A stretch of 64,000 bases of DNA from Paracoccus marcusii. GTDB lineage: Bacteria; Pseudomonadota; Alphaproteobacteria; Rhodobacterales; Rhodobacteraceae. Location of the stretch: NCBI RefSeq assembly GCF_028621715.1, contig NZ_CP117466.1:2058501-2122500 (forward strand). Direction: 5' to 3'. Under the pieces are notes generated by a model. That model searched no databases and had not been told where the DNA came from. It worked only from the letters and a program-made list of their open reading frames with translations. Below are positions 2,334-20,509 of the stretch, piece by piece. Position 1 is the first letter of the stretch. Each line of letters starts with the position of its first letter. The position numbers and the translations under genes were made by a program.

Positions 2334-3299
2334 GTGCCGGACAACCTTAAAGACCCTATCAAAATACCGTCCAGTATACGACAGGCAGAAAATGGGCGGC
2401 TTTTGCTTATCGGTGGAAATCACGGCGTGGCAAAAGTTTTCGCAAGTGATAGTCCGGGAGTCCCCGACAGTCGTGTTTCAGTGTTCCTAGATAACCATGA
2501 TCGGCGTATGAGTTGGACACGCACTCGTAATATAACCTATTCCCAGTGGGTGTTCCCAGATCCGATAGTATTTAAAGGTTCAATGCCACCGGGATCTGTT
2601 CGGTCAATATTTGAAGCATCGGTACCTCTACATATTCGCCCGTCAAATATCATGTACCCGCTTGATGTGATCGATGGACATTCTGATCGACAGAGCCTGA
2701 CGGACAGCCATTACAGTTTAGTTGGCAATATGCATCTTGCGGCTGAAGTCGCTCAAAAAACGCTATCGATAGATACCTCCACGGCACTGGACGTGCTTTG
2801 CTCTAGCCTTTTGCCGCTCGTATCTTACACCGGGGACCTCGGTGTGCAGTGCAATCCTCATGTATCAGAGCTTCGTGCCAAGCCACCACAGCTTGCAGGT
2901 ATCAGGACCGCTTCAAACGGCGTCCAAGCTGGAAACATGGGTATCATACAGCTCACAGTATCTGAAAATTCTATGACCGATCGTACACTGCTCATCTTCG
3001 GCGACTCATTCTTCCGAAGCCTCCTGCCAGAACTAGCGCGATATTGGAGAAGTATTGTATTTTTCCGGACTCAGTTTTTTCACGATGAAATGATTGAGGC
3101 GATCATGCCTGATGATATTTTGTGCGGACTAGCTGAGCGATACTTTCCTACAACCTCACCTGATTCTGAACGTCCACATTTTTTATCGTATCCGTTAATG
3201 ATGGGTCGGCGTACCTCCCCGGACGCTGAATTTCCGAAGCTTTGGAATGAACTTGTAGATTCTAAAGCGCTAGCCTCCATAATGTCATCGGAAAAATAA
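2334..3299 (+). CDS. SGNH-hydrolase/acyltransferase-like protein (AlgX/AlgJ-like), AT-rich insert in the tail operon
   Basis: This 321-residue protein starts at GTG 2334, six bases after an AGAAAGG ribosome-binding site. Two motifs fit the polysaccharide O-acetyltransferase AlgX/AlgJ fold in the correct order: an Asp-x-His in TDSHY (D124, H126), then GDSF (S225) about 100 residues later. In AlgX the catalytic triad has the same order and similar spacing. After GDSF comes a stretch (FFRTQFFHDEMIEAIMPDD) like the usual 'debate on who acts' helix of that family. No signal peptide is visible, unlike periplasmic AlgX/AlgJ, so the place and partner are unknown. Base and codon use are far more AT-rich than the flanking tail genes, and the gene has its own terminator. 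It looks like a later-acquired phage accessory gene. A role in acetylating or deacetylating a glycan is inferred. Confidence 0.55.
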   Translation: MPDNLKDPIKIPSSIRQAENGRLLLIGGNHGVAKVFASDSPGVPDSRVSVFLDNHDRRMSWTRTRNITYSQWVFPDPIVFKGSMPPGSVRSIFEASVPLHIRPSNIMYPLDVIDGHSDRQSLTDSHYSLVGNMHLAAEVAQKTLSIDTSTALDVLCSSLLPLVSYTGDLGVQCNPHVSELRAKPPQLAGIRTASNGVQAGNMGIIQLTVSENSMTDRTLLIFGDSFFRSLLPELARYWRSIVFFRTQFFHDEMIEAIMPDDILCGLAERYFPTTSPDSERPHFLSYPLMMGRRTSPDAEFPKLWNELVDSKALASIMSSEK

Positions 3300-3335
3300 A
3301 TTTTCTATTATCATTGATATCTTTCAATCTAATAT

Positions 3336-3364
3336 AAAGCCTCGCCATTCGGCGGGGCTTTTCG
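3336..3364 (+). terminator. Rho-independent terminator after the SGNH gene
   Basis: The sequence AAAGCCTCGCC-attc-GGCGGGGCTTTT forms a GC-rich hairpin followed by a T-run. It isolates the accessory gene from the tail genes downstream. Confidence 0.75.
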
Positions 3365-3403
3365 TAATAAAATAAATGATGCACTGAGAATATTTATTGC
3401 CGT

Positions 3404-4309
3404 ATGGGGGCTAATTTGAAAATCATCGAGCCGTACGACGTCACCCCCTCCATGATGCTGGCCAGCAATGTTCCGGAGACCGACCATCCCGCGTGGGTCT
3501 CCGGGACGAGCTACGAGAACGGCGCGCGGGTGATCCGGCAGAACGCCATCTGGGAAAGCATCCAGGCGGCCAATGTCGGGCATGACCCTCTCACGGACAT
3601 GGTGTCGGAGTGGTGGTTCCGGATCGGGGCCACCAACCGCTGGCGTGCCTTCGACAACCGGCTTGGCGGGGTCACCCGCCAGCCCGGCAACATCACCTAC
3701 ACGATCCGCCCGCCGCGGACCCTCAACAGCATCGCGTTCTTTGGACTCGATGCGCAGAGCGTCCGGATCAGGGTCACCACCCCGGGCGCCGTGCTGATCT
3801 ACGACCAGACCTTCCAGCTCGCCTCGCGCGATCAGGTGGGGACGTTCTGGGAGTACATCTACACGCCCTTCACGGTGCGGTCGGACCTGATCCTGACGGG
3901 TCTGTCGCTGCCGTCCGGGTCCTCGATCGAGATCACCGTGGCCTCGACTGGCTCGGCCGAGGTCGGCGAGATCATGATCGGCAACCAGATCGACATCGGC
4001 ATCTCGCTGATGGGATCGAGCCTGGGCATCGTGGACTATTCCAAGAAGGACCGGGACGAGTTCGGGGGCGTGTTCATCGTTCCGCGCCCGGTCAGCGAGA
4101 CCGTCCGGTTCCGCTTCTCGGTACCCTCCGGCGGGGAGGCCCGCGTGCAGCAGATCATCCGGCGGATTACGTCCAAGATCTGCGTCTTCTACGCCATCGA
4201 GGGCGAGGACCGTTTCGGGATGACCATTGCGGGCATCCTGCGCGACTACGACCTGACGATCGGCGCGGGCAAATCCTTCGGAACCATCGACGCGGAAAGC
4301 CTCGTCTAA
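3404..4309 (+). CDS. Conserved phage tail-tip protein, carbohydrate-binding-like N-terminus
   Basis: About 300 residues. Two starts compete: ATG 3404 has no ribosome-binding site, while in-frame TTG 3416 lies just behind GGGGG (3406-3410) and would give a product beginning MKIIEPYDVTP. The TTG start is more likely. The N-terminal region has a motif like chitinase-type carbohydrate-binding modules (PAWVSGTSYENGARVIRQN, then a W in IWESIQA), followed by a beta-rich body. Proteins beginning this way are common in the tail-tip regions of alphaproteobacterial phages, so a structural or adsorption role is inferred. GC content returns to that of the tape-measure gene. Confidence 0.6.
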   Translation: MGANLKIIEPYDVTPSMMLASNVPETDHPAWVSGTSYENGARVIRQNAIWESIQAANVGHDPLTDMVSEWWFRIGATNRWRAFDNRLGGVTRQPGNITYTIRPPRTLNSIAFFGLDAQSVRIRVTTPGAVLIYDQTFQLASRDQVGTFWEYIYTPFTVRSDLILTGLSLPSGSSIEITVASTGSAEVGEIMIGNQIDIGISLMGSSLGIVDYSKKDRDEFGGVFIVPRPVSETVRFRFSVPSGGEARVQQIIRRITSKICVFYAIEGEDRFGMTIAGILRDYDLTIGAGKSFGTIDAESLV

Positions 4310-4357
4310 AACCATCACCCATCATCTCAGGAGCGCCCGTCACCCGGGTGATTTAGC

Positions 4358-5059
4358 ATGGCAATTACCCCACCGCCCACGCCGCCGAACACCGGCAACC
4401 CTGCGCAGCTGGAGGAGCGGGCAGACGCCTTCTTCGGCTGGTTTCCAACGTTCGTCTCGGACTACAACGCCGACCTTCCCCTGCTGCGTGGAAAGACCTA
4501 CGCCGCCCGCGGCGGCACGGCGAACGCGATCACGCTGAACACCGGGGGCGTGGCGCTTGCGACGGGCATGCAGGTCCGGTGGCGGGCGGCGGCGGCGAAC
4601 TCCGGTCCGGTCACGATCAACGTTGACGGGCAGGGCGCGATCGAGGCGCGGACCATCACCAATGTCGCGCTGCCCGCCGGCTACATCCGCACCGATGCCG
4701 ACACGGTCGCGACCTATGACGGGACACGCTGGATCGTGGACCGCCAGATCGAGAACGGGATCAATGCCAATGGGGCGTTCCAGCGTACGGCAGATGGCAC
4801 GCTGCTGTGCTGGGGGTTCGGGACGAGCGGCACCTCGTCAGACACACCAGCGACCTTTCCTGCGGTCTTTATGGCGTCGAACGCTGCCAGCGAGATCATG
4901 GTCACGCTTGGGATCAACTCGACCACAACGGCTTTCGGCATGGCGACGCGCTTTACCGCGATGACCAACACCGGGTTAAGTTTCGCCGCCTTTCGGACAG
5001 ATACCCAAGCGCTCATCTCCGTGCGCGTCACCTTCATCGCCGTCGGCCGCTGGTACTGA
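4358..5059 (+). CDS. Phage tail fibre protein
   Basis: This 233-residue protein starts at ATG 4358. The N-terminus is proline-rich and resembles the linker of side-tail-fibre proteins (PPPTPPNTGNP, then a segment ending in FVSDYNAD). The middle has the repeated-strand pattern NAITLNTGGVALATGMQV and GPVTINVDGQGA typical of phage fibre domains. The C-terminus reads NGAFQRTADGTLLCWG and ends GRWY, a pattern like the trimeric C-terminal head of tail fibres. It would take part in host recognition. A short inverted repeat TCACCCGGGTGA precedes the start. Confidence 0.7.
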   Translation: MAITPPPTPPNTGNPAQLEERADAFFGWFPTFVSDYNADLPLLRGKTYAARGGTANAITLNTGGVALATGMQVRWRAAAANSGPVTINVDGQGAIEARTITNVALPAGYIRTDADTVATYDGTRWIVDRQIENGINANGAFQRTADGTLLCWGFGTSGTSSDTPATFPAVFMASNAASEIMVTLGINSTTTAFGMATRFTAMTNTGLSFAAFRTDTQALISVRVTFIAVGRWY

Positions 5060-5069
5060 GGATCACCCC

Positions 5070-5384
5070 ATGAAGATCATGTTTACCCCGCAGCTGCGGG
5101 CTGATGCCCTGTCGCTGTCCCTCGATGGTGACGTGCTGACCGTCAACGGCACCGCCTACGACTTCGGCCCGCTGGCCGAGGGTGGCACGCTGCCCCGCGA
5201 GGCTGTCGGCTGCCCGCTGCTGGCCTCCGACGTCACCCGTGTAGGCGGTCACATCATGCTAGCGCTGATCCTGCCCCACGGCAGCGACGCGCCCGAGGCG
5301 GCCCGGTTTCCCCAGCCCATCACCGTTACCCAGACCGGGCCGATCCCACTGCCAGTGACCTATGCCGAGGAGGCGCCCGAATGA
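5070..5384 (+). CDS. Small conserved phage protein of the tail-fibre region
   Basis: A 104-residue protein starting at ATG 5070, 10 bases after the fibre gene and behind a GAGGAT ribosome-binding site. The sequence is beta-rich and ends with a hydrophilic tail (PVTYAEEAPE). I recognise no catalytic motif. It overlaps the next gene by four bases (ATGA), so the two are probably translationally coupled. Its place between fibre and DUF4376-like genes suggests a fibre accessory or assembly role, which is inference. Confidence 0.6.
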   Translation: MKIMFTPQLRADALSLSLDGDVLTVNGTAYDFGPLAEGGTLPREAVGCPLLASDVTRVGGHIMLALILPHGSDAPEAARFPQPITVTQTGPIPLPVTYAEEAPE

Positions 5385-5758
5385 TCGACTGGAGCCAGGT
5401 CGTCACCGCCGCGCAGCAGCAGGAAACGGATCGCCAGGCGCTGCGCAATCTGATCGCGGCCCGCCGCCATGAGGCGATGTGCGCGGGGATCAGCATCGCG
5501 GGAATGTCGGTCGCAACCGACGACGTCAGCCAGACCCGTTTCGCCGGGGCCGCCGTCAGCGCCATGCTGGACCCCGACTATGCCGTCCGGTGGAAGACGG
5601 GCGACGGGTCGTTCCGGCTGCTGTCCGGTGCCGAAATCATCGGAATTGCCAGCGCCGTCCGGGCGCATGTGCAGGCTTGCTACGACCGCGAAGCCGATCT
5701 TCTGGCGGCACTGGACGCGGGCGAAGCCGTCGATCCGGAAGCAGGCTGGCCCGGCTAG
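5381..5758 (+). CDS. DUF4376-like phage protein
   Basis: 125 residues, starting in the ATGA overlap with the preceding gene. The helical pattern (QQQETDRQALRNLIAARRHE, then an AVRAHVQACYDREADLLAAL helix near the end) and the position after a tail-fibre gene match DUF4376-type proteins, which are frequent in phage tail-fibre modules. No catalytic residues are obvious. The usual guess for such proteins is fibre assembly or chaperone work, but the function is not established. Confidence 0.6.
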   Translation: MIDWSQVVTAAQQQETDRQALRNLIAARRHEAMCAGISIAGMSVATDDVSQTRFAGAAVSAMLDPDYAVRWKTGDGSFRLLSGAEIIGIASAVRAHVQACYDREADLLAALDAGEAVDPEAGWPG

Positions 5759-5821
5759 AGCAGCCCGCCCAGCCATCGCGACCAACCTCCCCTGCGAGGG
5801 GCACAATCACCGAGAGGGGCC

Positions 5822-8383
5822 ATGGCCAACATCATCAAGACCTCCGTCGGGGGGGCCGGTACGCGGCCCGTCACGGAGATCGTCCTGACCGCCACCAACG
5901 ACCTGACCTATGAGCCGGGGGCGGGGCACGTGCTGATCCTGCGCAACCCGACCGCGGCATCGATCGACTGCGTGCTGCGCGGCGCGGACAGCACGACCGT
6001 CAACTTCCCCGGCGCGCCGTTCATCTCCGTCGCCGGCGGCTACTCCACCCCCGTCCCGGCCGGTGCCGTCCGCGCCATCCCGCTCGACACCGTGGCCGCC
6101 TATCTGAAGGGCCCCGTGACTGTCACCGGTGCTGGCCTCGTCGCGGTGCTGATGCGCGCGGTGAACGGGCGTGGCGCCAGGTCCATCTTCAACGATCCTC
6201 CGGCGGCCGTGCCGGGCGATATCCCGGCTGCCGACCCGGCCATCGTGACCAGCCCCGTGATCACCGGCAGCGCGGTTGCAGGCGGCACGCTGTCGTCGAC
6301 GCTTGGAGCCGCCAGCGGAAATCCCGCGCCCAACGCGACGCGGCAATGGCTGGCTGACGGTGTGGCCATCGCTGGCGCAACCGGTGCTACGCTGGACACC
6401 ACGGGCCGTGCCGGCCAGTCCATCAGCCTGCGCGTGACCTGGTCAAACGGCATCGGAAGCCCGGCCGTCGCGACCTCCAATGCCATTACCATCGTGGCCG
6501 CTGCGACCGCCCCCGTTCCGTTCGCGGCAGGCGACTGGTCCCTCGCCACCGGTCTGGAGGCGAACCAGCTGGTCGTGAACATTGCATCGCTGCCGGCCAA
6601 TGGCGGGTCTCCGATCACCGCGATCCAGTACTCCGCCAATGGGGGCACGTGGACGGCGCTGCCTGGTGGCGCTGGAACCGGCCCCCGTACGCTGACCATG
6701 CCCGCGGCCGCCACGAGCTACTCGATCCGCCTGCGCGCCGTGAACGCAGTGGGCAACAGCACGCCTGGTGACACGAAGACGGCCACCAGCGGGGCGGCTG
6801 ATACGTCCGCACAGCGGGTCATCGTTCTGACGGACTACGCGGGTGACTGCGATGACGCGGCAGCGATGGCTATTGTGGCGCGTGCGCATGAGGAAGGTGA
6901 CATAAATCTGCTAGGTGTGGTCACAACCTCAACGGTCTCTACATCAGCGCCAGGTCTTCGCGGCAATCTTGACGCTTACAGGTTACAGTCCATTCCAGTC
7001 TACGCCTACCAAGGCGCTGTCGGAACGTACAACGACCGATACAGCATTCAGATGCGTGACGAGTTCGGCGTTCCCGGCCAGACACGAACTGCATACCAGG
7101 ACGACGTCGCCGGGTTGCGGACGATGCTCGCGGCAGCGCCGAGCGCCTCGGTCAAGCTGATTGACATCGGCGCGCCTATCTCGACTGCTCGCTTGCTAGC
7201 CAGTCCTGCCGATGGCATCTCACCTCTTACCGGCGCAGAGCTTGTAGCGGCAAAGGTCGTAGGCTTGTGGGCCATGGCGGGCAATTTCCCGACCGGCGTG
7301 TCCGAGTACAACATGAACCGCGACGTGGCCTCGTCGCAGGCTGTGTACAGCAGCTGGCCCACGCCCATCTATGCGCACGGCGGGGAGGTTGGGGCTACGA
7401 TTTTCACTGGACCAGCCCCGAGCACGGTTTACGGCGATGATCCGGTCAAGACGGCCTTTGATGCGTTCCAGAACATCTATGGCGGTACGCTGCAGAGTGG
7501 CCGCCGCCAATCATGGGACCCGGCGACGGTCCATCACGCCATCTATGGCAATCAGGCCCTCTACACCCTGTCCGCAGCCGGAACGATTGCGATCGACGGC
7601 ACGGGTGTCAGCACCTGGACGGTAAACGCCAGCGGCAATCGGTTCTATGTCACCAAGACTGCGTCCGACGCGGCAATTGCCGCGGCAATGCAGGCTCTGA
7701 TTGACGACTACGCTGTCATTGCCCCGCCGGGGCCATCCAATGCCGTGAACCGGTTCTTTGATCTGAACGAGGGCAATGGATCACCCACACAGCGTGGCGG
7801 CACTCTCGCAATGACCCGCGCCAGCGGCGCGACGTGGCGAACTGACCCTGTTGGTATCGCCCATAGCGGCACGACCAGCCACATGATCCTGCCGGGCGCA
7901 GGACTGAACGCTGATGACTTGCTGATCGGGGCCGTGTTCCGCCTGGACAGGATCACCGGGACACAAGCACTAGCTGCCCTGCGTGTAGGGGTGACCAACC
8001 AGTACCAGTTTCGGGCTAATGCCGCAGCGCTGGAGGCTGTCGTTTTTACCGGCAATGCAAATACGGCAACGATCCTCGCGTCTCCAAGCCTTCTGGTCAT
8101 AGGCGATTGGGCTATGGCCGTGGTTCGCATGGGTGATATGGCCACGACCCTCCGCCTGAACGGGGTGGAGGTCGCATCCGCCTCACACCCTGTTCGGAAC
8201 AAGGCTACGCCTGATGCCGGGGTTGCCATCGCAGGCCGGTACACCGGCTCGGCCTACACCGATTTGCTAGACGGCGACATGATCGGCTTCGGATACGCGA
8301 CAAACGCCGCCTTGACCGACATTGCCGGGTTCGAGGCCGAGCTCCGAGCCATCGCCTTAGCCAAAGGCATCACCCTCTCCTGA
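5822..8383 (+). CDS. Multidomain tail protein with Ig-like, Fn3-like, nucleoside hydrolase-like and lectin-like domains
   Basis: 853 residues, ATG 5822 behind GAGAGGGG. Residues 1-115 are a beta-rich phage virion-type domain. Residues 140-225 look Ig-like (TRQWLADGVAIAGATG), and 230-322 Fn3-like. Residues 331-635 resemble inosine-uridine nucleoside hydrolases: an N-terminal Asp cluster (D338, D342, D344, D345 in LTDYAGDCDDAA), the middle motif AMAGNFPTGVSEYN with D500, and WDPATVHHAI with D566, matching the usual last metal-binding Asp. All metal ligands of that family seem present. Residues 640-853 look like a concanavalin-type lectin domain. Codon use is more AT-rich over about 6900-7550, inside the hydrolase domain, which suggests a mosaic origin. 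A tail fibre or tip enzyme acting on a ribosyl or glycosyl bond is possible; the substrate cannot be told. Confidence 0.7.
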   Translation: MANIIKTSVGGAGTRPVTEIVLTATNDLTYEPGAGHVLILRNPTAASIDCVLRGADSTTVNFPGAPFISVAGGYSTPVPAGAVRAIPLDTVAAYLKGPVTVTGAGLVAVLMRAVNGRGARSIFNDPPAAVPGDIPAADPAIVTSPVITGSAVAGGTLSSTLGAASGNPAPNATRQWLADGVAIAGATGATLDTTGRAGQSISLRVTWSNGIGSPAVATSNAITIVAAATAPVPFAAGDWSLATGLEANQLVVNIASLPANGGSPITAIQYSANGGTWTALPGGAGTGPRTLTMPAAATSYSIRLRAVNAVGNSTPGDTKTATSGAADTSAQRVIVLTDYAGDCDDAAAMAIVARAHEEGDINLLGVVTTSTVSTSAPGLRGNLDAYRLQSIPVYAYQGAVGTYNDRYSIQMRDEFGVPGQTRTAYQDDVAGLRTMLAAAPSASVKLIDIGAPISTARLLASPADGISPLTGAELVAAKVVGLWAMAGNFPTGVSEYNMNRDVASSQAVYSSWPTPIYAHGGEVGATIFTGPAPSTVYGDDPVKTAFDAFQNIYGGTLQSGRRQSWDPATVHHAIYGNQALYTLSAAGTIAIDGTGVSTWTVNASGNRFYVTKTASDAAIAAAMQALIDDYAVIAPPGPSNAVNRFFDLNEGNGSPTQRGGTLAMTRASGATWRTDPVGIAHSGTTSHMILPGAGLNADDLLIGAVFRLDRITGTQALAALRVGVTNQYQFRANAAALEAVVFTGNANTATILASPSLLVIGDWAMAVVRMGDMATTLRLNGVEVASASHPVRNKATPDAGVAIAGRYTGSAYTDLLDGDMIGFGYATNAALTDIAGFEAELRAIALAKGITLS

Positions 8384-8406
8384 AAACCGTCCAGAAAGGA
8401 CATTTC

Positions 8407-11400
8407 ATGCCCACCGCTGAAATCGCGGCGCGCCTCGGCGTCATCAATGGCGAGACCGCACGTCCCTTCATCAACGCCTTCAAGCAGGCGTGGTCCTGGC
8501 AGGCCGACCGGGGCGGCGCGCAATGGGACCAGCTGGTCGCGGCCGGTCACATGACCCCCGGCGGCCAGTTGATCTCGATCCCGCCGGGGTCAGGCGGGTT
8601 CCGCACACGCCTGTTCCACAACATGCCGGCGGAGGCGGGCGGCTCCGGCCGCCAGCGTCTGCGGTGGGACGGGACCTGCACCATTGATCTGCATGGCGCC
8701 CGAAACATCACCCGCGTGTCGCCGAACGAGATCCAGTTCGACTTCACTGCCAATGGTGCGTCCTGGATTGACCTGATCGTCCGGACGATTGAGCCCGCAG
8801 GCGGACCGATCGAGAACATCTCGCTGGTGCACCAGGATGACTGGGCCGACGCCGATCAGGGCAAGATCTTCCGCCGGCAGTACCTGACCGAGGTGGCGCC
8901 CTATCACGCCCTGCGGTTCGATGAGTGGATCGGCATCCTGACCTCGGAGAACCAGGGCGGCCTGCGGATCACAGACTGGGCCAGCCGGGCGCTGCCGACC
9001 GACGAGATCTTCCACCGCTTCGTGCCCTACGAGTGGATGGCGGCGCTCTGCCGTGAGGTCGATGCCGACATGTGGCTGTGCCTGCCGACCGCGGCGACCG
9101 ACGATCACATGCACCAGTGCGCAGCCCTGATCCGCGATCTGATGCCCGCGCCGCGGCAGGTCTATGTCGAGTACAGCACCAAGACCTGGGACTTCTCCGG
9201 CACCCCACAGGCGCACTACTGCGCCGCCCGGGGCCGCGAGGCCTTCGGCACCAGCACCGGGTCCGAGTTCCGGAACTGGTACGGCTTGCGGTCGGTGCAG
9301 ATGGCGCAGATCTGGCGCCGGGTCTGGGGCGGCGACGAGCGGCTGCACACCGTGGTTCAGCACCAGGCGGACTGGGTGGGCGGCGAGGCCGACATCCTGC
9401 TGGCACCGCTATGGCGGGACCGCAGCGGGACTCAGGGTCTGCCGGTCTACGTCGCGCCGCACTCGGTGATCGACATGCTGACCGTGCACGCGCAGATAGA
9501 CGGCGGCATGGCCTATGGCGGCCGGGCCTCGCAGCTGGAGGGCTGGCGCACCTCCCTGTCACAGGGCGCGGCCTTCGACCGGATCCGCGACCAGCTGCTG
9601 ACGGGCAACGCGTGGGGCGCAGACCGCACGGTCCGCAGCCTGGTGCTCAAGTGGCGGCACTACCGGAGCGAGGCGTCGAAGTACGGCATGGAGCTGAGCG
9701 CTTACGAGGTCGGCAACCACATGAACGGCGTCGGCGGCAGCACGGCCCTGCGATCGTTCATCCATGCCTTCTCGGTCAGCCCGCAGATGGGCGAGGTCTA
9801 TGCCGCCACTTTCGCCGCTCTTGATGCCGCGGGCTTCAACGGGCCGCTATGCATGTCGGTCGAATGCCGGATGCCCGACCAGAACATCATGCACGGCCTG
9901 CAGCGCTGGTTGGGCGACCGCAACCCGGCCTGGGCTGCGGTGCGGGCGCTGATCGAGGATGCGCCCGTCACGGTGCCTAAGCCCGTGCCTGTGCCGGTCC
10001 CGGAGCCTGTTCCGGTGCCGACGCCTGTGCCGGATAGGGAACCCATCCCCACGCCCGCGCCTGTTCCTGAGCCAATCCCCACTCCGGTCCCCGTGCCGGT
10101 TGATCCAACCCCCGAGGAACCCGATATGAGTGCCCGACAAAAGCTGATTGAACTCCTGAGCGTCCTTCAATCTACGACCGCAGACCTGCAGACCTATCTT
10201 GCAGCCGATCCTGTCGCGACGCCGCCCGATGTCGTTCCGCCGGTGATTTTTCCGGTCTCGCCGCCCGTCGCCGCACCGGCAGGGCCGATCTGGGACCAGT
10301 ACAAACAACCGGTTCTCAGCATTCCGCCGGAGATAACGGTGCCTGCCGGTGCGGCTGACATCTACATTCCTGTGTCCGTTGATCAGTGCGACCGCAATTC
10401 TTTCATGGCGTATGTCGATCGTCTGGTGAACCTCACGGGCGGCAGCATCAACGTCGGGTCTGCGGACTCGCAACGCGCGAAGTTTGCCGGCATGGACGTG
10501 GTGTATCACTGGTCCCCCGGTGACGATGTCCTGCATTGGATCAAGATCACGCCTCGCGACCGCCACGCCGACGGTCAGGCTTTCCAGATCACCATCCGGG
10601 TCAAGGGCCTCGGCGATAAGCAGAAGGGCCGCACTGTCAAGGTTCGGTTCTCCTCGGCAGTTCCCACGCAAGTCATCACGCAGCCGTTCCACCGTCCTCT
10701 GCGCCGCCTGGACCTGTCCCGCGCCACACGCAAGAACATGTTCGACCCGGCTACGCTGACGTACAACCCGACAGGAGATGGCGGCGAATGGATGTCTGCC
10801 CTGAGCCATGGACGGTCGCAGGACGGCAATCAGGAGACGGGTCTTTATGCCGATGCTTCTATCGCAGGGGCGGACAATCCCATCAGCTACGATGCTGCCG
10901 AGAAGGCGATCCGCCTCCACTCGGTCGGATATGCGAGCCGGGTCGAATGGGACAAGCGCAACTGGAGCTACCAAGCTGCTGTGCTTCAAGGCCTGCATCG
11001 AGATGATGTCTGCGGGGTCGAGGGAGTCTGGCGCATCGAGGCCAAGATCCCTGTGCGCCGCTACAGCTGGCCCGCGTTCTGGCTCGTCAATCGTTCAAAG
11101 GCTTCTGCCGGGTTCTACTACAGCCAGTGGCCCGGCGAGATCGACATCCTGGAGAAGTTCAACCATGCGTGGGGCGCGGCTGATACGCCGTACACCAGCT
11201 CGTTCGCGCAGCACTTTGGTCCGATCAACGAATGGCAGAACAAGAAGGGCGCTTTCGGAAACGACTTCGAAGTTGACCAGTACGGTTCGCCCCGGACACC
11301 GCTGGATGAGGTCTACACATCCTGGGCGGTTCACGTGACCTATGACCCGGTGGACACCACTAAGTCGGAAGTCACGTTCTTCGTGAACGACCGCGAGGTG

Positions 11401-11595
11401 GGCTGCCAGATCCTGCACGCACGACACCAGGATCTGGCCCGCAAGATCGAGTTCTACCCGATCTTCAATGTCGCCGTGAAAACGCCATCAGGTTACACTC
11501 CGGAGCGGTACAACACCGACGACGGGCGCGGCCGAACCGGTGACATGCTGGTGCGGGATGTGGCCTACTATCCGACAGGTGCACAGTTCGCCTGA
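8407..11595 (+). CDS. Tail-spike-like protein: glycosidase-like N-half, Pro-rich linker, GH16-like C-half
   Basis: 1062 residues, ATG 8407 behind AAAGGAC. Residues 1-515 resemble a family of TIM-barrel, clan-A-like glycosidases from Rhodobacterales. Where relatives read YSNE-W at the acid/base position, this one has YSTKTW (residues 256-261), so that residue seems lost; E433 in AYEVGNH may be the remaining nucleophile. Residues 519-572 are a Pro-Val repeat linker. Residues 640-755 form a beta-sandwich-like domain. Residues 765-1062 look like GH16: EIDILE at 911-916 fits the catalytic ExDxxE with the one-residue bulge, followed by aromatic-rich strands. GH16 enzymes cut beta-glucans, galactans and similar polymers. 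The likely role is a tail-borne depolymerase. An in-frame ATG at 10126 has its own ribosome-binding site. Confidence 0.7.
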   Translation: MPTAEIAARLGVINGETARPFINAFKQAWSWQADRGGAQWDQLVAAGHMTPGGQLISIPPGSGGFRTRLFHNMPAEAGGSGRQRLRWDGTCTIDLHGARNITRVSPNEIQFDFTANGASWIDLIVRTIEPAGGPIENISLVHQDDWADADQGKIFRRQYLTEVAPYHALRFDEWIGILTSENQGGLRITDWASRALPTDEIFHRFVPYEWMAALCREVDADMWLCLPTAATDDHMHQCAALIRDLMPAPRQVYVEYSTKTWDFSGTPQAHYCAARGREAFGTSTGSEFRNWYGLRSVQMAQIWRRVWGGDERLHTVVQHQADWVGGEADILLAPLWRDRSGTQGLPVYVAPHSVIDMLTVHAQIDGGMAYGGRASQLEGWRTSLSQGAAFDRIRDQLLTGNAWGADRTVRSLVLKWRHYRSEASKYGMELSAYEVGNHMNGVGGSTALRSFIHAFSVSPQMGEVYAATFAALDAAGFNGPLCMSVECRMPDQNIMHGLQRWLGDRNPAWAAVRALIEDAPVTVPKPVPVPVPEPVPVPTPVPDREPIPTPAPVPEPIPTPVPVPVDPTPEEPDMSARQKLIELLSVLQSTTADLQTYLAADPVATPPDVVPPVIFPVSPPVAAPAGPIWDQYKQPVLSIPPEITVPAGAADIYIPVSVDQCDRNSFMAYVDRLVNLTGGSINVGSADSQRAKFAGMDVVYHWSPGDDVLHWIKITPRDRHADGQAFQITIRVKGLGDKQKGRTVKVRFSSAVPTQVITQPFHRPLRRLDLSRATRKNMFDPATLTYNPTGDGGEWMSALSHGRSQDGNQETGLYADASIAGADNPISYDAAEKAIRLHSVGYASRVEWDKRNWSYQAAVLQGLHRDDVCGVEGVWRIEAKIPVRRYSWPAFWLVNRSKASAGFYYSQWPGEIDILEKFNHAWGAADTPYTSSFAQHFGPINEWQNKKGAFGNDFEVDQYGSPRTPLDEVYTSWAVHVTYDPVDTTKSEVTFFVNDREVGCQILHARHQDLARKIEFYPIFNVAVKTPSGYTPERYNTDDGRGRTGDMLVRDVAYYPTGAQFA
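10112..10128 (+). promoter_or_regulatory. Candidate internal ribosome-binding site and start codon
   Basis: Inside the preceding gene, just after its Pro-rich linker, GAGGAA lies seven bases before an in-frame ATG at 10126 (codon 574). Translation from here would give a separate 489-residue C-terminal product holding the beta-sandwich and GH16-like domains. Confidence 0.35.
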
Positions 11596-12853: not shown

Positions 12854-13420
12854 ATGCCACACTTCCCCATCAAGCTCATCGTGCTGCACTACAGCGCGAC
12901 CTATCCCGACCAGGATTGCGGCGTGGCCGACATTCGCAAGATGCACCTCGCCCGCGGGTTCAACGACGTCGGCTATCACTACGTGATCCGGCGCAGCGGA
13001 GCCGTCGAGAAAGGCCGCCAGGACGCGACCGTCGGTGCGCACGTCGCGGGCCACAACACCGGCAGCCTAGGCATCTGCTGCATCGGGGGCATCGAGCGGG
13101 CGACCGGCCCCAATGTCGGTGTCGACAACCGCACCGAGGCGCAGAAGGCTGCGACCGTGAAGCTGGTCCGCGAACTGCTGGCCAAGCATCCCGGCGCCCA
13201 GGTCGTCGGCCATCGTGATCTGGGCGCCACCCAGTGCCCCGGCTTTGACGTGCGCAGCTGGTGGGCCGCGGCCAACGCCCGGCCGCCCGTCGTGGACAGC
13301 ATCCCGGCGAAGCCCCTGCCGTCCCCATCTGCACCTGTCACGACCGGCCCTGCCAAGGGCGCCATCTACATCCTCGCTGCGCTGGCTGCTGCCACGCTGG
13401 CCTATTTCGGAGTGAAATGA
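12854..13420 (+). CDS. Phage endolysin, N-acetylmuramoyl-L-alanine amidase (amidase_2/T7 lysozyme type)
   Basis: 188 residues, ATG 12854 behind AGGAGG. It cuts the bond between muramic acid and L-alanine in peptidoglycan to release phage. The amidase_2 zinc ligands are visible: H12 (LHYSAT), H120 (GHRDL) and C128 (CPGFD), with the conserved Tyr in GYHYVI. T7 lysozyme has a catalytic Lys two residues before the Cys; here that place holds T126. After the catalytic domain a Pro-rich linker (about 150-165) leads to a hydrophobic segment at 168-185 that could anchor the protein in the inner membrane. This C-terminal anchor is not usual for a simple soluble endolysin. It overlaps the next gene by four bases. 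Confidence 0.85.
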   Translation: MPHFPIKLIVLHYSATYPDQDCGVADIRKMHLARGFNDVGYHYVIRRSGAVEKGRQDATVGAHVAGHNTGSLGICCIGGIERATGPNVGVDNRTEAQKAATVKLVRELLAKHPGAQVVGHRDLGATQCPGFDVRSWWAAANARPPVVDSIPAKPLPSPSAPVTTGPAKGAIYILAALAAATLAYFGVK

Positions 13421-14407: not shown

Positions 14408-14469
14408 GACTGTCGCACGTCTTGCTCAATGTTCTTCTTACGTTCTAATTGGACCGGAAGGAGACAGCC

Positions 14470-14685
14470 ATGCCCCGCCACCGAATCCACGAACCGATTT
14501 TCCCGGAGAACCGGGCCCTCTACATCATCTGGTGCGAGGAGTGGCAGGGGGATCGGTACTCCCTGGCGGCCGGGCACCTGAGCGCCATGATCGCGGCGTG
14601 GGACGCGATGGTAGACTACTCGCCACGCGACCGGCTTTTGCTCCAGTTCGGCAGCCGAGTGCTTCGTATGAGGGAACCCATATAG
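14470..14685 (+). CDS. Small phage-region protein, 71 residues
   Basis: ATG 14470 stands behind AAGGAG (14458-14463). Codon use is GC-rich like the tail genes. The sequence has Trp and Tyr spread through it (YIIWCEEWQGD, then AAWDAMVDYS) and no motif that I know. Function unknown. Confidence 0.5.
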   Translation: MPRHRIHEPIFPENRALYIIWCEEWQGDRYSLAAGHLSAMIAAWDAMVDYSPRDRLLLQFGSRVLRMREPI

Positions 14686-14976
14686 CTAGCCTTCCACGGT
14701 CAACGTCGTGTTTAAAATAAGCGGGCGAATCCACACCTGCTTGGCGCTATCTCCGCCGATGCGGTGAGTTCAAGAAATAAAATTTAGCAACCCATAACCC
14801 CTAGGCTTGGCTATCCATGCAACCTAAAATGGACAGTGGCGCGCATGTCAGAAATCGTACAGAACAGCGCCAATGATCTGAACGCACAGAAGACTGATCG
14901 ACCCGCACACTCATGGATCAACCACTGGGACAGCTCTTGGGAACAGTGCAGGAGCATAGAATAGAAGGAAGTTGCT
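14686..14976. other. Composition boundary leading into the AT-rich cassette
   Basis: No supported gene. A 39-codon ORF at 14845-14964 ends 12 bases before the next start but has no ribosome-binding site. The stretch around 14770-14800 is AT-rich (AAGAAATAAAATTTAG) and may hold a promoter for the cassette. This is where the phage backbone changes to accessory DNA. Confidence 0.35.
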
Positions 14977-15489
14977 TTGACAACGGAACGCAGGTTCACC
15001 GACACGCACCTTATCCTTATGGAGATCAGGCGTATAGGAATTCTGATCGATGGGTCCCGTCAAACTGACGAAGGTGCTCAAAAGCGGTCTGAAGAACTGC
15101 GTGACGAGGTCGAGCGCGGCCGCATCCTTGCAGCAAAATTTGCTGAGCAGATATCGTGTCTTACTGAAGCTTATAACAGAATCACGAAACAATTGCAGCA
15201 AAGAGATGAGTTGATTGCCTCTATGAGAGGCAACACTCAATCTGGCGATCCCCTAGATGTAAGCAGTTCCATCGACCCCGAACTCCGTGAAGCGATTAGA
15301 AGTTCCCTCATTAGAGCACGAGAGCAAGCTGATGAGGCAATAAAGCGCGCCGACGTCCTTGAGGCTGAAGCCGTCACTCTGCGTGATGAACGAAATAAGG
15401 CACGTCAGGATGTCGAGGAAATACGGGCTAGTAACTCGTGGAAAGTTACCGCGCCTATTCGAGCTGTAACAGGCTTGTTTCGCCGATAG
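14977..15489 (+). CDS. Coiled-coil protein of the glycosyltransferase cassette
   Basis: 170 residues from TTG 14977, behind AAGGAAG. Residues 30-150 are almost all charged helix with heptad repeats (EELRDEVERG, AREQADEAIKRADVLEAEA). The C-terminus reads RASNSWKVTAPIRAVTGLFRR. That short S-x-SW-x-TxPxR-Arg-rich ending is common in coiled-coil segments joined to bacterial surface-glycan glycosyltransferases. The glycosyltransferase gene begins 66 bases later, so a scaffold or chain-length partner is plausible. This is inferred; there is no catalytic motif. Confidence 0.5.
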   Translation: MTTERRFTDTHLILMEIRRIGILIDGSRQTDEGAQKRSEELRDEVERGRILAAKFAEQISCLTEAYNRITKQLQQRDELIASMRGNTQSGDPLDVSSSIDPELREAIRSSLIRAREQADEAIKRADVLEAEAVTLRDERNKARQDVEEIRASNSWKVTAPIRAVTGLFRR

Positions 15490-15555
15490 ACCTCGGGTCT
15501 CTCATTGACGGCATAAGTGCTTTCCGGTGCTTATTGATACGACAGGAACAACACT

Positions 15556-18500
15556 TTGGCTAACGCGACTTCCGATCAGGGCTCATCATCAGAGTTGGAA
15601 CTGACCTCAGCGAAACGATTTTTCGATGCCGCTGCATATCTGACATTGTATCCTGATGCTCACAGTTACAAAGCAGGCCCATGGGCTCACTACGTCAACC
15701 ATGGGCAGTCCGAACGTAGAACACCTAACCCGCTTTTTGATCCCTTGTGGTATCGTGCTCAAACGGACGATCAAATCACCGATCCATTCGGGCACTATCT
15801 TACGCAGGGATGGCGGAAGTTACTTTCTCCCCATCCCTTGTTTGACCCCATTTGGTATCTCGCGCATAACCCTGACCTGATATCCGCCAATCTAGACCCC
15901 ATTGCACATTACCTTGAGCACGGATGGCACGAAGGCCGTCCTTTGCATGCCTTGTTCGATCCGACGTGGTACCTAAATGCATATTCCGATGTCCGGGCGA
16001 GCGGCGTGGAACCCCTTTCGCATTTTTTGGTAAGCGGATGGCGACAAGGACGTAGGCCTCATCCTTTATTCGATACAAAGTGGTTTCTTGAACAAAACGC
16101 AGATCTACGTGGATCTGATGTAAATCCGTGGCTTCACTACATTCAGCATGGCTGGCGAGAAGGGCGCTCTCCCCACCGAGGCTTCGACGTTAATTGGTAT
16201 ACACAAAGCTATCTGCAGACCTGGCGACGTGAACAAGAGCCTCTTGCACATTATCTTACAACTGGATGGCGAGATGGCCTGAAGCCGAGCGAGAACAGCT
16301 CTGCTGCCGTTCATGCAGCAGGTAGGAATGCACCGTTGCTCGAGCAGGAAATAATAAACCTAGCGGCAGTTGGAACCTCCGCCAGCGACGATCTTCGGCA
16401 CGATGGTCGTCGTGGAACAGTACTACTGGTGACGCATGAGACGGAAGTTGGGGGAGCGCCGCATGTACTAAAGCAAATCGCACTCTTCTTGCGTGATCGA
16501 ACCAGGTTTGACGTGCGCATAGCTGCGATCAACGGTGGCAATTTGCGTGAAGCTTTTGCCAACGTAGCGCCGCTTCTTGTGTTGTCTGAGCACACAATGC
16601 AATCACGGGATAGGGTTCTACAGGACTTTGCAGGTCCAGACTTAAAGGCAGTTTTCGTAAATTCGATAGCGAGCGGTGGAATATTAGATCATTTGCCTGC
16701 AGATCTGCCAACTGTGGCATTTATCCATGAATTGCCTCAGTTGCTCGACCGCTATCCAAATCAAGTTTCTCTTGTACGTGATAGAGCCTCTAGAATTATC
16801 GGCGGTGGACCAGACGTCACAAACGCGCTTGAGGTTCGGTACAAGTTCGATCCTGAGAAGCTCGTTTCAGCAGTTAGTTTCATTGAATCGTTACCCCCAG
16901 GCACGGATTTTGTAGAGCGGCGTGATGCTGCGCGTGCAGCCTTAAACATAGGGTCAGATCGTTTCGTTGTAATGGGTTGCGGACTTCTTCATTGGCGCAA
17001 ATCCCCAGAGAAGTTCATCGAGACGGCGCATCTATTGACCGAGCGTGGAATTGACGCTGACTTTGTATGGCTGGGTGGTGGCCCAGATCACGATAAATGC
17101 AATCAGCTCGTTGAGCATTATGGGTTAACGGATCGAGTCCGTTTTACCGGCTATGAGCCGGATGTGGCCGGCAAGCTCGCTGGTGGCGACCTTTTTCTCC
17201 TAAGCTCCTGTGAAGATCCATTCCCGCTGGTTGCACTATATGCCGCTCAAGCTGGTCTCCCAATTGTTTGTTTTAAAGACGCTGGCGGAATAGAAGGTTT
17301 CGTCTCAAACGGCAGTGGCATTGCGGTACCACATATGAACAGCGTTGCGATGGCAGATGCTGTTGAAAAATATTATGTTGATCGTGCTCGCGCATGTGCC
17401 GATGGTGTTCTGGGCCAATCACAAGTTACTCGCGGTCATACCATTGACGTTATCGGTCCCTTACTGCTTCATCACATCCGCGAGGCAGCGATGTTGCCCC
17501 CAGAGGTGACTGTTGTTGTCCCAAACTACAACTACGAAAAATATTTGCCTGAGCGTCTGGATAGTATTGCAGCACAGACATTTCAAGATTTTGAAGTTGT
17601 TCTTCTTGATGACGCATCATCTGACAAATCAGTTGCTGTCCTACAGAGTTTTGCTGATAGGCGGCCTGGTACGAGGCTGGTTGTAAATCCGCAGAACAGC
17701 GGATCCCCCTTCGTGCAGTGGCTACGAGGTATGGAGTTTGCAAACGCCGAACTAATCTGGCTTGCTGAGGCAGATGACAGGTGTACACCTGATCTATTGA
17801 TGCAATTGCTACCCTTCTTTAACGATCGAAACGTACGAATTGCATCGTGTGCGTCCCGTCCAATAACTTCCGATGGTGAATTGATTGGCGACTACAGACC
17901 ACTTTATCTTAACCGTATTGCGAACGGGCGATGGGATAACGACTATATCGCAAGTGATCATGAAGAGGCAAACGCAGGGCTTGGCATTGCAAACTCTATT
18001 CCAAACGCCAGTGCTGTAGTTTTCCGGAAATTTGCACCAGAGCCTCAATTTGTCACTCAGCTTACCGATATGCGGCTATGTGGCGACTGGTATTTCTATT
18101 GCCGGGTAATGCGTGGCGGTCTCGTTGGTTATCGTGCGCGTGAGATGAATGATCATCGTAGACATGAGAGCACCGTCACCAAACAGCTTGAAGGCTCAAC
18201 TCATTACTTTTCCGAACTGGCTGTCGTACGAGACTACCTCGGCCGCAACTACCACCAAAATTCCGATTGCCGAACTCGTATAGCTGAATTTCTAGCTCAA
18301 GATATCGCGCGTTTCAAAGTCAACGACGATACTGCATCTGCAATTCAAACTACTAGGAAAAAGGATCTACCGTCTCTACTCGTTGTAGCCCCGGACTTGT
18401 CGCCCGGGGGTGGTCAGGTGTTTGCACTCTCTATTGCAAATGAATGGGCCGCGCGCGGGGGACGGGTTGTACTTCTAAATGTCGAGAGCCAGCCCTCTCA

Positions 18501-19455
18501 CCCAGCGATGATCTCACGTGTATCTCCCGAGGTTATGCTAGTCGGCGCGCATGACCCAGGAGCCGATTTGCGAACACTGATTCAGCGTTTCGATATTGAC
18601 GCAGTGCACTCTAGCATTTGGTGGGCGGACAGGTGGGTTGACGATCACCGTCATAATTTGCCGGCTGAAATGCCTTGGATAATCACAATGCACGGCTGTC
18701 ACGAAACTATCCTCGCGGAGCCGTCGATTGATGACAGCTTCATTGAGCGGATGGGGCGTATGTCAGAGCGCGCCAGTTGGGCATATACCGCAGCTAAAAA
18801 CCTCGCTGTTTTTAAAACCATGCCCCAGCCGCGTCGGTTGGTTAAAATTCCAAACGGAGTGCATCTTCAAACTGATGAATCAGGCCCGGATAGAGCAGCG
18901 TTAGGTTTGCGATCTGATGCGTTAGTTTTAGGGTTAGCTAGTCGAGCAATCGATTCTAAGGGGTGGCACGAAGCGGTCCGTTTGACGCATCGCCTGAACG
19001 ACGCAGGTTATCCGACTGATCTTCTTCTTATTGGGGAAGGACCCACGGCTTCAGTTATTAAAGAACAAGGCCCGGCCCACGTCCGTCTGCTTGGACAGGT
19101 CAGTAATCTGCAAGCGCATCTGCGGATCCTCGACATCGGGCTGTTGCCTAGCTATTTCCCGGGTGAATCATTGCCACTTGTGCTCCTTGAGATGATGGCC
19201 CAAGGCATCCCTTCAATTGCGTCTCACATTGGTGAGATACCTTGGATACTTAACGGTGGGGATGATCCGGTTGGGCTTCTGGTGCCATTGTCATCGTCTG
19301 GTGTTGATGAAGATATCCTCTTTGCCCATGCAATTAAGTTGTCCGATAAAGCGCTCCGCTCCAAATTGTCTTTAAACGCCAAGGTTCGTTTTCAAAAGGA
19401 GTTTGAAATTGGAAGAATGCTGGATCGATATATCGAGCAATACCGGGGGCGTTGA
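15556..19455 (+). CDS. Giant glycosyltransferase: six N-terminal repeats, then GT4, GT2 and GT4 domains
   Basis: 1299 residues, probably from TTG 15556. Residues 22-244 hold six repeats of about 37 residues with the pattern LFDPxWYL...D....P..HYL..GW.EGRxPH. Residues about 288-640 form a GT4-like (GT-B) domain with the ETEVGGAPHVL loop. Residues about 650-880 form a GT2-like (GT-A) domain opening VTVVVPNYNYEKYL, with an EADDR acidic motif. Residues about 939-1299 form a second GT4-like domain with DLSPGGGQ and GESLPLVLLEMMAQG (the E-x7-E sugar-nucleotide motif). The protein would assemble or branch a surface polysaccharide with up to three linkages; sugars cannot be told. AT-rich codon use points to transfer. 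Followed closely by a sulfotransferase. Confidence 0.75.
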   Translation: MANATSDQGSSSELELTSAKRFFDAAAYLTLYPDAHSYKAGPWAHYVNHGQSERRTPNPLFDPLWYRAQTDDQITDPFGHYLTQGWRKLLSPHPLFDPIWYLAHNPDLISANLDPIAHYLEHGWHEGRPLHALFDPTWYLNAYSDVRASGVEPLSHFLVSGWRQGRRPHPLFDTKWFLEQNADLRGSDVNPWLHYIQHGWREGRSPHRGFDVNWYTQSYLQTWRREQEPLAHYLTTGWRDGLKPSENSSAAVHAAGRNAPLLEQEIINLAAVGTSASDDLRHDGRRGTVLLVTHETEVGGAPHVLKQIALFLRDRTRFDVRIAAINGGNLREAFANVAPLLVLSEHTMQSRDRVLQDFAGPDLKAVFVNSIASGGILDHLPADLPTVAFIHELPQLLDRYPNQVSLVRDRASRIIGGGPDVTNALEVRYKFDPEKLVSAVSFIESLPPGTDFVERRDAARAALNIGSDRFVVMGCGLLHWRKSPEKFIETAHLLTERGIDADFVWLGGGPDHDKCNQLVEHYGLTDRVRFTGYEPDVAGKLAGGDLFLLSSCEDPFPLVALYAAQAGLPIVCFKDAGGIEGFVSNGSGIAVPHMNSVAMADAVEKYYVDRARACADGVLGQSQVTRGHTIDVIGPLLLHHIREAAMLPPEVTVVVPNYNYEKYLPERLDSIAAQTFQDFEVVLLDDASSDKSVAVLQSFADRRPGTRLVVNPQNSGSPFVQWLRGMEFANAELIWLAEADDRCTPDLLMQLLPFFNDRNVRIASCASRPITSDGELIGDYRPLYLNRIANGRWDNDYIASDHEEANAGLGIANSIPNASAVVFRKFAPEPQFVTQLTDMRLCGDWYFYCRVMRGGLVGYRAREMNDHRRHESTVTKQLEGSTHYFSELAVVRDYLGRNYHQNSDCRTRIAEFLAQDIARFKVNDDTASAIQTTRKKDLPSLLVVAPDLSPGGGQVFALSIANEWAARGGRVVLLNVESQPSHPAMISRVSPEVMLVGAHDPGADLRTLIQRFDIDAVHSSIWWADRWVDDHRHNLPAEMPWIITMHGCHETILAEPSIDDSFIERMGRMSERASWAYTAAKNLAVFKTMPQPRRLVKIPNGVHLQTDESGPDRAALGLRSDALVLGLASRAIDSKGWHEAVRLTHRLNDAGYPTDLLLIGEGPTASVIKEQGPAHVRLLGQVSNLQAHLRILDIGLLPSYFPGESLPLVLLEMMAQGIPSIASHIGEIPWILNGGDDPVGLLVPLSSSGVDEDILFAHAIKLSDKALRSKLSLNAKVRFQKEFEIGRMLDRYIEQYRGR

Positions 19456-19516
19456 CATGGTGATGTTGACCTTCGGTAATATTCATTATTGCGTAGTGTC
19501 TTAGGAAAACCTTTAG

Positions 19517-20509
19517 TTGCTTTTAGCAAAAGTCTGGCGCGGTGTGTCAGGACTGGCGGCGGCTACTATAGCAAAAAGTGTGGGACAAGAGTTGACTAAA
19601 AGAATCTATATGCACATGGGCTTACAGAAAACAGGCACCAGCAGTATTCAAGTGATGCTAGCGTCATCCGGTAAAGCTTTAGAGGATTTCGGGTATTTTT
19701 TTCCGAACCTTCCTGTTCCTCAGACCGAGCGAAGCTCAGTTTGGACGTCGCCTTTTAGACATAACTGTTTAGCTGCAACATATGCAGACTTCCATTCAAC
19801 ATTTCAGCCGTTGACGGCTCCGGAACATACCGTCCTAATGGGAGCTATGCGATCGTCGAAATATGATCCAATATTATCGGCGGAAGAATTTAGTCGTCAG
19901 TTAGATTTCTCACGTATCGCTAGAGGTTTAGCTGGCTTCGAATTGGTCGTGCTAATCTATCTACGGCGCCAAGACCGATACATGGAATCTCTTTACAATC
20001 AACGTAACAAAATACTTGTTTCACGTTGTGATACAAGCTTCCTTGGTGATTCTATACTTACTATTGATGATATGCGTCAGTTTATACAGGTTTCCGGTTA
20101 CGATAAGATTATGAATTTTCATTCTCTACTAAAGAGAATCGAAAATGATTTAAAACCGATTTCAATATACGTTCGGGATTTTAATAGATTATCCTTACGG
20201 GGCGGTGACGTTTGCGACGATTTTTGTTCGCTCATCAACGTCGACATTGATCAAATGTCCCGACCAAGGACGGAAGCTAATCAGTCAATTGGCAACCATG
20301 TTATTGCGTCAATCAATGACACGTTTATGAGTTCTGGGCGTGAAGCCGCAAAGGAAATGATGTCAGAAATAAATTTACGAATGTCTCAGGGCGAGGATTT
20401 TTCTGGAGATTATAAAATTTTATCTGACGGTGATCGACAGTCACTGCTGGATGAGTATGCAAATCAAAATGACGAATTGAAACGCGACTTTGGAGTTAGC
20501 TTCTATTAG
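19517..20509 (+). CDS. Sulfotransferase-like protein
   Basis: Up to 330 residues. TTG 19517 has a weak ribosome-binding site; in-frame GTG or TTG codons up to about 19592 could instead be the start. The PAPS 5'-phosphosulfate loop is clear in MGLQKTGTSSIQ (residues 34-45), and LRRQDRYMESLY (149-160) fits the 3'-phosphate-binding region. The reaction would move sulfate from PAPS to a sugar hydroxyl. Its position 61 bases after the glycosyltransferase and the same AT-rich composition suggest that it sulfates the glycan made by that enzyme. It has no signal peptide, so it would act in the cytosol on a precursor. Confidence 0.65.
   Translation: MLLAKVWRGVSGLAAATIAKSVGQELTKRIYMHMGLQKTGTSSIQVMLASSGKALEDFGYFFPNLPVPQTERSSVWTSPFRHNCLAATYADFHSTFQPLTAPEHTVLMGAMRSSKYDPILSAEEFSRQLDFSRIARGLAGFELVVLIYLRRQDRYMESLYNQRNKILVSRCDTSFLGDSILTIDDMRQFIQVSGYDKIMNFHSLLKRIENDLKPISIYVRDFNRLSLRGGDVCDDFCSLINVDIDQMSRPRTEANQSIGNHVIASINDTFMSSGREAAKEMMSEINLRMSQGEDFSGDYKILSDGDRQSLLDEYANQNDELKRDFGVSFY

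Follow-up and report, generated by a model that had tools for sequence, protein, structure and literature searches.

The prophage integrated at a tRNA-Val gene of Paracoccus marcusii carries four low-GC open reading frames (ORFs), probably as cargo that modifies a sulfated surface glycan of the lysogen (lysogenic conversion). The attR end of this prophage lies in the window, which is the whole 64,000-nucleotide stretch analyzed here (G000:C1:2058501-2122500, from a single-contig genome of 3.18 Mb); positions given without a prefix are those of the window. Phage cargo is supported by the attachment-site (att) borders of the element, empty counterparts of the site of the SGNH gene in related prophages, other cargo in the equivalent end slot of the prophage of genome G434, and the position of the second group of genes inside attR. 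The original prediction had placed the ORFs at 2334-3299, 14977-15489, 15556-19455 and 19517-20509, all on the plus strand, and each was confirmed there, with products of 321, 170, 1299 and 330 amino acids (aa), respectively. The features of the two units are as follows.

1991 to 3416, plus strand: moron insert of 1.4 kb at the junction of the tape-measure gene and g3404; the site is empty in relatives
2253 to 2271, no strand assigned: perfect palindrome of 19 bp upstream of the SGNH gene, a possible operator or hairpin
2334 to 3299, plus strand: SGNH protein with a predicted PatB1/AlgJ/AlgX fold, without export signal
3336 to 3361, plus strand: intrinsic terminator directly 3′ of the SGNH gene, with an 11-bp stem
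14977 to 15489, plus strand: coiled-coil protein that corresponds to the C-terminal portion of a larger coiled-coil sulfotransferase with two domains
15556 to 19455, plus strand: glycosyltransferase (GT) with N-terminal repeats and the domain order GT4-GT2-GT4 (Pfam PF13692/PF00534 in two stretches, PF00535)
19517 to 20509, plus strand: glycan sulfotransferase of the 3′-phosphoadenosine 5′-phosphosulfate (PAPS) type, predicted from fold and motifs

The cargo lies inside a bounded prophage

The genes in question lie inside an att-bounded integrated prophage, as genes for lysogenic conversion do. A tRNA-Val(CAC) gene is located at L004:2969-3043, and a 54-base repeat that starts inside this gene and runs slightly beyond its end has an exact second copy at 21103-21156. 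The tRNA-side copy is adjoined by a tyrosine integrase gene (phrog_1, L004:3117-4127), and about 54.1 kb between the two copies hold genes for a helix-turn-helix protein, a DnaB-like helicase, the major head, head morphogenesis, major tail and tape-measure proteins, further tail proteins and an amidase endolysin. Integration at dusA was rejected: the repeat belongs to tRNA-Val, and the gene that we take to be dusA merely lies downstream of it. The window features that frame the cargo are the following.

68 to 2017, plus strand: tape-measure protein gene with PHROG matches, flanking the SGNH insert
12854 to 13420, plus strand: amidase endolysin (PF01510, phrog_822)
20699 to 20890, no strand assigned: IS5-family transposase-like remnant, part of which matches an annotated IS5 transposase of P. 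yeei (NZ_CP031085)
21103 to 21156, plus strand: attR, a 54-bp exact copy of the 3′ part of tRNA-Val(CAC)

The rest of the remnant matches other Rhodobacterales plasmids, in which no gene is named at that place.

The four ORFs have a GC content of 0.476 (2334), 0.505 (14977), 0.505 (15556) and 0.419 (19517), with GC at third codon positions of 0.38-0.47, compared with a GC content of 0.60-0.71 in 23 of the 25 other prophage genes measured. The unlike composition noted in the original prediction thus holds for the four genes, but low GC is not restricted to them, since the two remaining measured genes (L005:69-869, 0.532; L005:5750-6628, 0.506) and a few short prophage ORFs (0.52-0.54), two of them close to the repressor, share it. 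The first of these two genes (genome 2041069-2041869) encodes 266 aa and has no match in Pfam, PHROGs or PADLOC; the second (genome 2046750-2047628) has a match to PDC-S32, a candidate anti-phage defense family (E 6e-49), and a sub-cutoff match to AbiJ_NTD4.

Predicted enzymes of the cassette beside attR

The triple-domain glycosyltransferase of the original prediction was borne out by its Pfam domains, and near full-length relatives were found at 44-64% identity. The product of the 19517 gene, whose true start may be near residue 26, contains a KTGT loop at residues 38-41 and an R150-x7-S158 motif, which we take to be the 5′-phosphosulfate loop and the 3′-phosphate motif. In an alignment of 30 sulfotransferases, K38, T39 and G40 are each conserved in at least 90% of the members, R150 is invariant and S158 is conserved in at least 90%. 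The fold predicted for the protein is that of a sulfotransferase, with heparan-type glycan enzymes as its nearest counterparts. Loop, motif and fold together agree with its identification as a predicted PAPS sulfotransferase. Each of two Pfam sulfotransferase models matches a single member of the 30-row alignment (E 0.002). PDB sequence searches with single proteins gave no match, and profiles of this protein and of the G434 sulfotransferase described below gave none either.

The coiled-coil protein shares 31% identity over 150 aa with residues 344-490 of a protein of the Paracoccus plasmid pLM20P4, and its last 23 aa are 61% identical to a coil protein of the host chromosome. The idea that a remnant of the missing catalytic domain lies upstream of 14977 was rejected: tblastn (E 10) with the proteins of L037 and L048 returned the C-terminal motif and, upstream, one 25-aa match at chance level (E 3.2).

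The SGNH gene lies in a separate, moron-like insert

The SGNH insert has features of a moron: it is absent from relatives at a conserved junction, has a GC content of 0.476 and carries its own terminator, and both genes that flank it remain open. The terminator (-19.2 kcal/mol, z -5.05) has a T run at its 3′ end and was not listed by a general terminator scanner. On the plus strand upstream of the gene, a scan that covers sigma-70-like promoters found no such site. The palindrome has one match in the window and none in 100 shuffles, and the stretch 2240-2300 around it has a folding z of -4.0. Across the other loci the palindrome is likewise unique, save in two loci that repeat the same stretch.

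The residue order D124-x-H126 followed by G223-D-S225 holds in every row of an alignment of 31 sequences, with D224 almost invariant, and the predicted fold agrees with PatB1, AlgJ and AlgX, in which the permuted Asp-His pair also precedes the Ser. A profile of the family matched AlgJ among PDB sequences at 5e-5; searches of PDB sequences with the single protein gave no match, and Pfam gave no ALGX match for it, although 5 of the 31 alignment members do match ALGX. The proposed likeness to AlgX and AlgJ therefore survives in residue order and fold but not in export. Because it has no export signal, the protein is not a plain AlgX/AlgJ counterpart, and we class it as working like the AlgX/AlgJ/PatB1 acetyltransferases rather than as a member of that group.

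The host has a second SGNH gene (L045:9138-10085; genome 2525.1-2526.1 kb), 58% identical and near tRNA-Pro, without glycan genes as neighbors; its region is syntenic with P. marcusii CGMCC 1.8602 (L031).

Related prophages have empty sites and other cargo

Relatives of g3404 were found in eight of the 124 other Paracoccus genomes and in two IMG/VR records, and the junction could be read in seven of these ten. None of the seven has an SGNH gene at the junction. In G440 and G517, which are 96% identical at g3404, the counterpart of 1-1990 is followed by that of the sequence from 3417 on with no more than about a dozen bases between them; the alignments of 1-1990 and 3417-6219 meet at 9934/9947 in L082 and at 9998/10011 in L122. 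The flanking genes touch or overlap in G518 (L123, overlap), G434 and G412, and lie about 60 bases apart in G425. In G455, the junction holds an unrelated ORF of 518 aa, which was rejected as an SGNH relative (GC 0.64, no family match at 0.01). The genomes of the remaining three, G401, G443 and G470, gave no match to the SGNH protein at E 1e-20.

The end slot between the amidase gene and attR also varies. The prophage of G434 (P. liaowanqingii) spans about 44.2 kb, is bounded by a 46-bp tRNA-Val(TAC) repeat and has an integrase 54% identical to that of the window prophage. Two sulfotransferase-like ORFs lie between its attR and the phage genes. The first, ST-a (L084:9140-10060, 306 aa), is labeled Sulfotransferase family in one source and has no Pfam match; it is a distant homologue of the 19517 product (hhalign 98.4%, E 7.7e-15, 217 columns). 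The second (L084:10160-10753, 197 aa, GC 0.42) has a sub-threshold match to Sulfotransfer_2 (E 0.0016). Sulfotransferase-type cargo is thus present in two of the four prophages with a readable region after the amidase, the window prophage included; G440, G455, G517 and G518 are outside this count, their sequence ending before or inside the slot. Relatives of ST-a in G440, G433 and G467 sit among chromosomal genes (GC 0.65-0.69), suggesting that the family has a host source and is not restricted to phages. In G412, a PD-Lambda-2_B-like defense protein is encoded downstream of the amidase (L088:18735-19844).

A low-GC gene of 380 aa lies on the opposite strand between the counterpart of the 12181 gene and the endolysin gene in G518 (L123:18686-19828) and G440 (L082/L083), where the window has no insert. 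It has no family match, and its GFGSSGGG motif presumably resembles that of alpha/beta-hydrolases. Because these siblings hold an insert that the window prophage lacks, gene traffic among them appears to run both ways. The G518 record is 53.3 kb long, and the 20.9 kb of it that were read hold no part of the cassette.

Relatives of the genes in glycan loci elsewhere

The link between the genes, which the original prediction had drawn from position and composition, is strengthened by their association in other replicons. In Alloyangia pacifica KcN7-14, relatives of the sulfotransferase (42%), the glycosyltransferase (44%) and the SGNH protein (35%) lie within 8 kb in one glycan locus, beside genes that we take to be rfbA, rfbB and rfbC. 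A coiled-coil sulfotransferase gene directly precedes the large GT gene in four of five other kinds of replicon, namely pLM20P4 (with its twin in G512), pSD20, a Phaeobacter G2 plasmid and G127; in the fifth, Alloyangia, the two are about 4 kb apart. We counted pLM20P4 and G512 as one lineage because their two proteins are near identical (493/493 and 1298/1299 residues). On pLM20P4 (L093, typed as mobilizable) and in its near twin (L134), three sulfotransferase-like genes surround this GT.

We also surveyed 17 SGNH loci, which were left of 12 from the genome scan and seven from a wider genome search once L037 (the source of queries) and L046 (on the same contig as L041) had been excluded, with L049 and L050, which hold weak SGNH relatives, counted as SGNH loci and not as controls. 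Ten matched at least one of 25 glycan-gene queries (E 1e-10), compared with none of 12 control stretches, which were convenience stretches at hand and not a random sample. Several queries are alike, so that queries matched do not equal genes; with matches within 150 bp joined, there were five separate glycan places in L036 and L040, four in L041, L047 and L092, two in L032, L038 and L042, and one in L033 and L039.

Among 125 Paracoccus genomes, a near full-length GT occurs in two and the SGNH gene (E 1e-20) in 10. Sulfotransferase matches (E 1e-10) occur in 53, with a close one only here (3.5e-135, against 2e-31 for the second best). In 50,697 phage records there was no match for the 19517 sulfotransferase, ST-a or the SGNH protein. 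Virus collections yielded no SGNH relative by profile from 74 pattern stretches, two weak sulfotransferase loci from 27, and, among viral contigs, no relative of the 197-aa G434 gene from eight. The two weak loci (L043 and L044, IMG/VR) are sulfotransferase relatives at 28-29% identity on two viral contigs. Among metagenome sequences, P0001 has a 98% identical sulfotransferase on 6.6 kb, and P0004 and P0051 contain relatives of the sulfotransferase and the SGNH protein; the longest contig of each is 9,423 bp, and the two may be one contig.

The host chromosome has its own glycan locus at genome 977-985 kb, with glf (75% identical to that of pSD20), an epimerase gene (70% to that of pLM20P4), a gene for an 857-aa GT/RgpF protein, an intact coiled-coil sulfotransferase gene (PF13469, E 1.9e-7), two further ORFs that are sulfotransferase-like by motif and weak similarity only, and genes that we presume to be rfb-like. 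No copy of the large GT was found in the host chromosome. Because the host locus has the coiled-coil sulfotransferase without the large GT, the prophage supplies the GT that elsewhere adjoins this protein, and the two may work together. An adenosine 5′-phosphosulfate kinase gene is present in the host genome. The idea that the cassette is a copy of the host gene set was rejected, as the host has no second full-length GT, a weak sulfotransferase match of 46 aa, and the 58% SGNH relative without glycan neighbors.

Tail-region proteins

Two further genes of the tail region were claimed to encode domains that could degrade a receptor.

5822 to 8383, plus strand: tail-region protein with a Laminin_G_3-like end (below the Pfam cutoff) and a nucleoside-hydrolase-like motif, a weak domain assignment
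8407 to 11595, plus strand: tail-region protein with a GH16-like EIDILE motif (phrog_17064, unknown function)

The motifs are present, but the two domain assignments are weak. In the 8407 protein, EIDILE is at residue 911, the NCBIfam match (E 1e-4) scores 21 bits where the cutoff is 700, and there is no match in Pfam or PDB; in the 5822 protein, the likeness to nucleoside hydrolases consists of the motif DYAGDCDD alone. Sibling prophages share the N-terminal part of the 5822 protein but differ in its middle and end, a pattern that would suit a receptor-binding protein subject to exchange.

Discussion

We propose that the prophage acquired two separate low-GC units from Rhodobacterales surface-glycan loci, a self-terminated moron encoding a PatB1/AlgJ-fold SGNH enzyme between two tail genes and a coil-glycosyltransferase-sulfotransferase unit beside attR. 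A glycan from the host's matching locus would be supplemented or lengthened in the lysogen by the large glycosyltransferase, the sulfotransferase would transfer sulfate from host PAPS onto that glycan, and the SGNH enzyme would attach acyl groups or take them off. The changed surface would keep competing phages from adsorbing or benefit the lysogen where it lives. We infer the expression of the genes in the lysogen, the activity and substrate of the enzymes, the surface change and the effect on adsorption. It is plausible, though we doubt it more than we believe it, that the pattern is general: tailed prophages of Paracoccus would repeatedly recruit varied sulfotransferases from host loci next to attR, with a matching glycosyltransferase, into the sulfated-glycan pathway of the lysogen, and sulfation would decide phage adsorption.

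Several observations weigh against this proposal of glycan conversion. The sulfotransferase models of Pfam and NCBIfam fail to recognize the 19517 product, and no sulfotransferase was found after the amidase in G412 or, by eye, in G425. Seven of the 17 SGNH loci (L031, L034, L035, L045, L049, L050 and L090) have no glycan match. The SGNH protein shows no export signal by hydropathy, the measure used in place of a dedicated signal-peptide predictor (highest 19-residue value 1.21 at residue 146, N terminus not hydrophobic), and for this reason an AlgX-like periplasmic role does not fit it. The coil protein is without the catalytic domain present in its relatives and the IS5-like remnant adjoins the cassette, so that the cassette may be a partial capture. 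Finally, the original prediction had named homologues found mainly as fixed chromosomal genes as evidence against it, and wherever surroundings were read, the homologues did lie outside prophages, on Rhodobacterales chromosomes and plasmids. We take these homologues to show the source of the cargo, because the genes here are enclosed by att sites and relatives lack the SGNH insert at its junction. Of the surface-glycan remodeling set first proposed, predicted glycan-type enzymes that are linked elsewhere and are carried as phage cargo remain, but the SGNH protein is not the plain AlgX/AlgJ counterpart expected and the homologues read are not those of prophages.

Such a partial capture could also be passive, a piece of a mobile glycan cassette trapped beside attR by imprecise excision or by an insertion sequence (IS) element and now decaying without a role. 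The incomplete coil protein, the remnant at 20699-20890 and a GC content far under that of the host are all consistent with this account. Against it, the GT, sulfotransferase and SGNH ORFs are as long as those of their relatives and keep conserved motifs or domains; the SGNH unit came in by a separate insertion, has a terminator of its own and leaves its neighbors open, and the G434 prophage has other sulfotransferase-like genes in the same slot. We regard passive carriage as unlikely, if worth keeping in view. We think it improbable that the enzymes act on phage or cytoplasmic targets such as virion proteins or nucleotides instead of a host surface glycan. None of the four proteins has a strongly hydrophobic stretch, and a virome paper suspects that phage transferases act on nucleotides or proteins (PMC10829341). 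Against this, the relatives sit in polysaccharide loci and the predicted sulfotransferase fold is nearest to heparan-type glycan enzymes. Cytoplasmic GTs and sulfotransferases are, moreover, normal for glycans assembled on the inner face of the membrane. A separate genomic island or a nested integration is a very improbable explanation of the attR-side cassette, despite its place at the outermost margin of the element and the presence of a similar one on a mobilizable plasmid, as the window holds no further copy of the 26-base att core at up to three mismatches, including between endolysin and cassette, the G434 cargo occupies the same place inside its own att repeat, and the size of the element fits the 53.3 kb of the G518 record.

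Prophage morons that convert O antigen or capsule include Shigella oac and E. coli K1 NeuO. The gtrABC genes of P22, named in PMC10883804, belong with them. Like these systems, the genes described here are prophage accessory genes predicted to modify a host surface glycan, and one of them stands between structural genes with its own terminator. They differ in a predicted sulfation instead of glucosylation or acetylation, in a GT with three catalytic domains and in the absence of a flippase or anchor gene among the four. A closer likeness is to the Rhodobacterales cassette of pSD20, the Phaeobacter G2 plasmid, pLM20P4 and G127, which combines a coiled-coil sulfotransferase, the large GT, a variable modifier and an epimerase, in some with glf and an RgpF-type GT. 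The prophage has the same GT (50-64% identity) preceded by a coil protein, and G127 has a sulfotransferase of the same family after the GT; in contrast, the coil protein here lacks the catalytic domain, and the prophage is without glf, epimerase and RgpF, which the host chromosome does have. The SGNH protein, in turn, shares predicted fold and permuted catalytic order with the AlgX/AlgJ/PatB1 acetyltransferases.

Sulfotransferase genes are reported in marine phages, namely OM43 phages and Synechococcus phage S-SRM01, by authors who call their function unclear (PMC10580990). Those are likewise phage genes of a sulfotransferase family, but of Sulfotransfer_3 and in another phage group, whereas the gene here lies in a bounded prophage beside a GT typical of glycan loci. 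Elsewhere, a sulfotransferase domain is reported in one integrated coral-associated virus (PMC11309003), sulfotransferases are counted among viral accessory genes (PMC8290583, PMC10829341), and genes carry the label PAPS reductase/sulfotransferase (PMC2920897, PMC10269572). The open-licence literature yielded no paper that combines Paracoccus, prophage and sulfotransferase, and, in the text examined, no case in which a prophage sulfotransferase is linked to a surface glycan.

In the present case, the prophage that carries the sulfotransferase gene has defined borders, and the neighboring glycosyltransferase is of a kind whose locus context is known. This makes the role of a phage sulfotransferase gene directly testable in a culturable bacterial genus, in which relatives without the SGNH insert and one with other sulfotransferase-like genes can serve as comparison strains. 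Acetylation and glucosylation are established modes of lysogenic conversion, and, if our reading is true, sulfation would join them.

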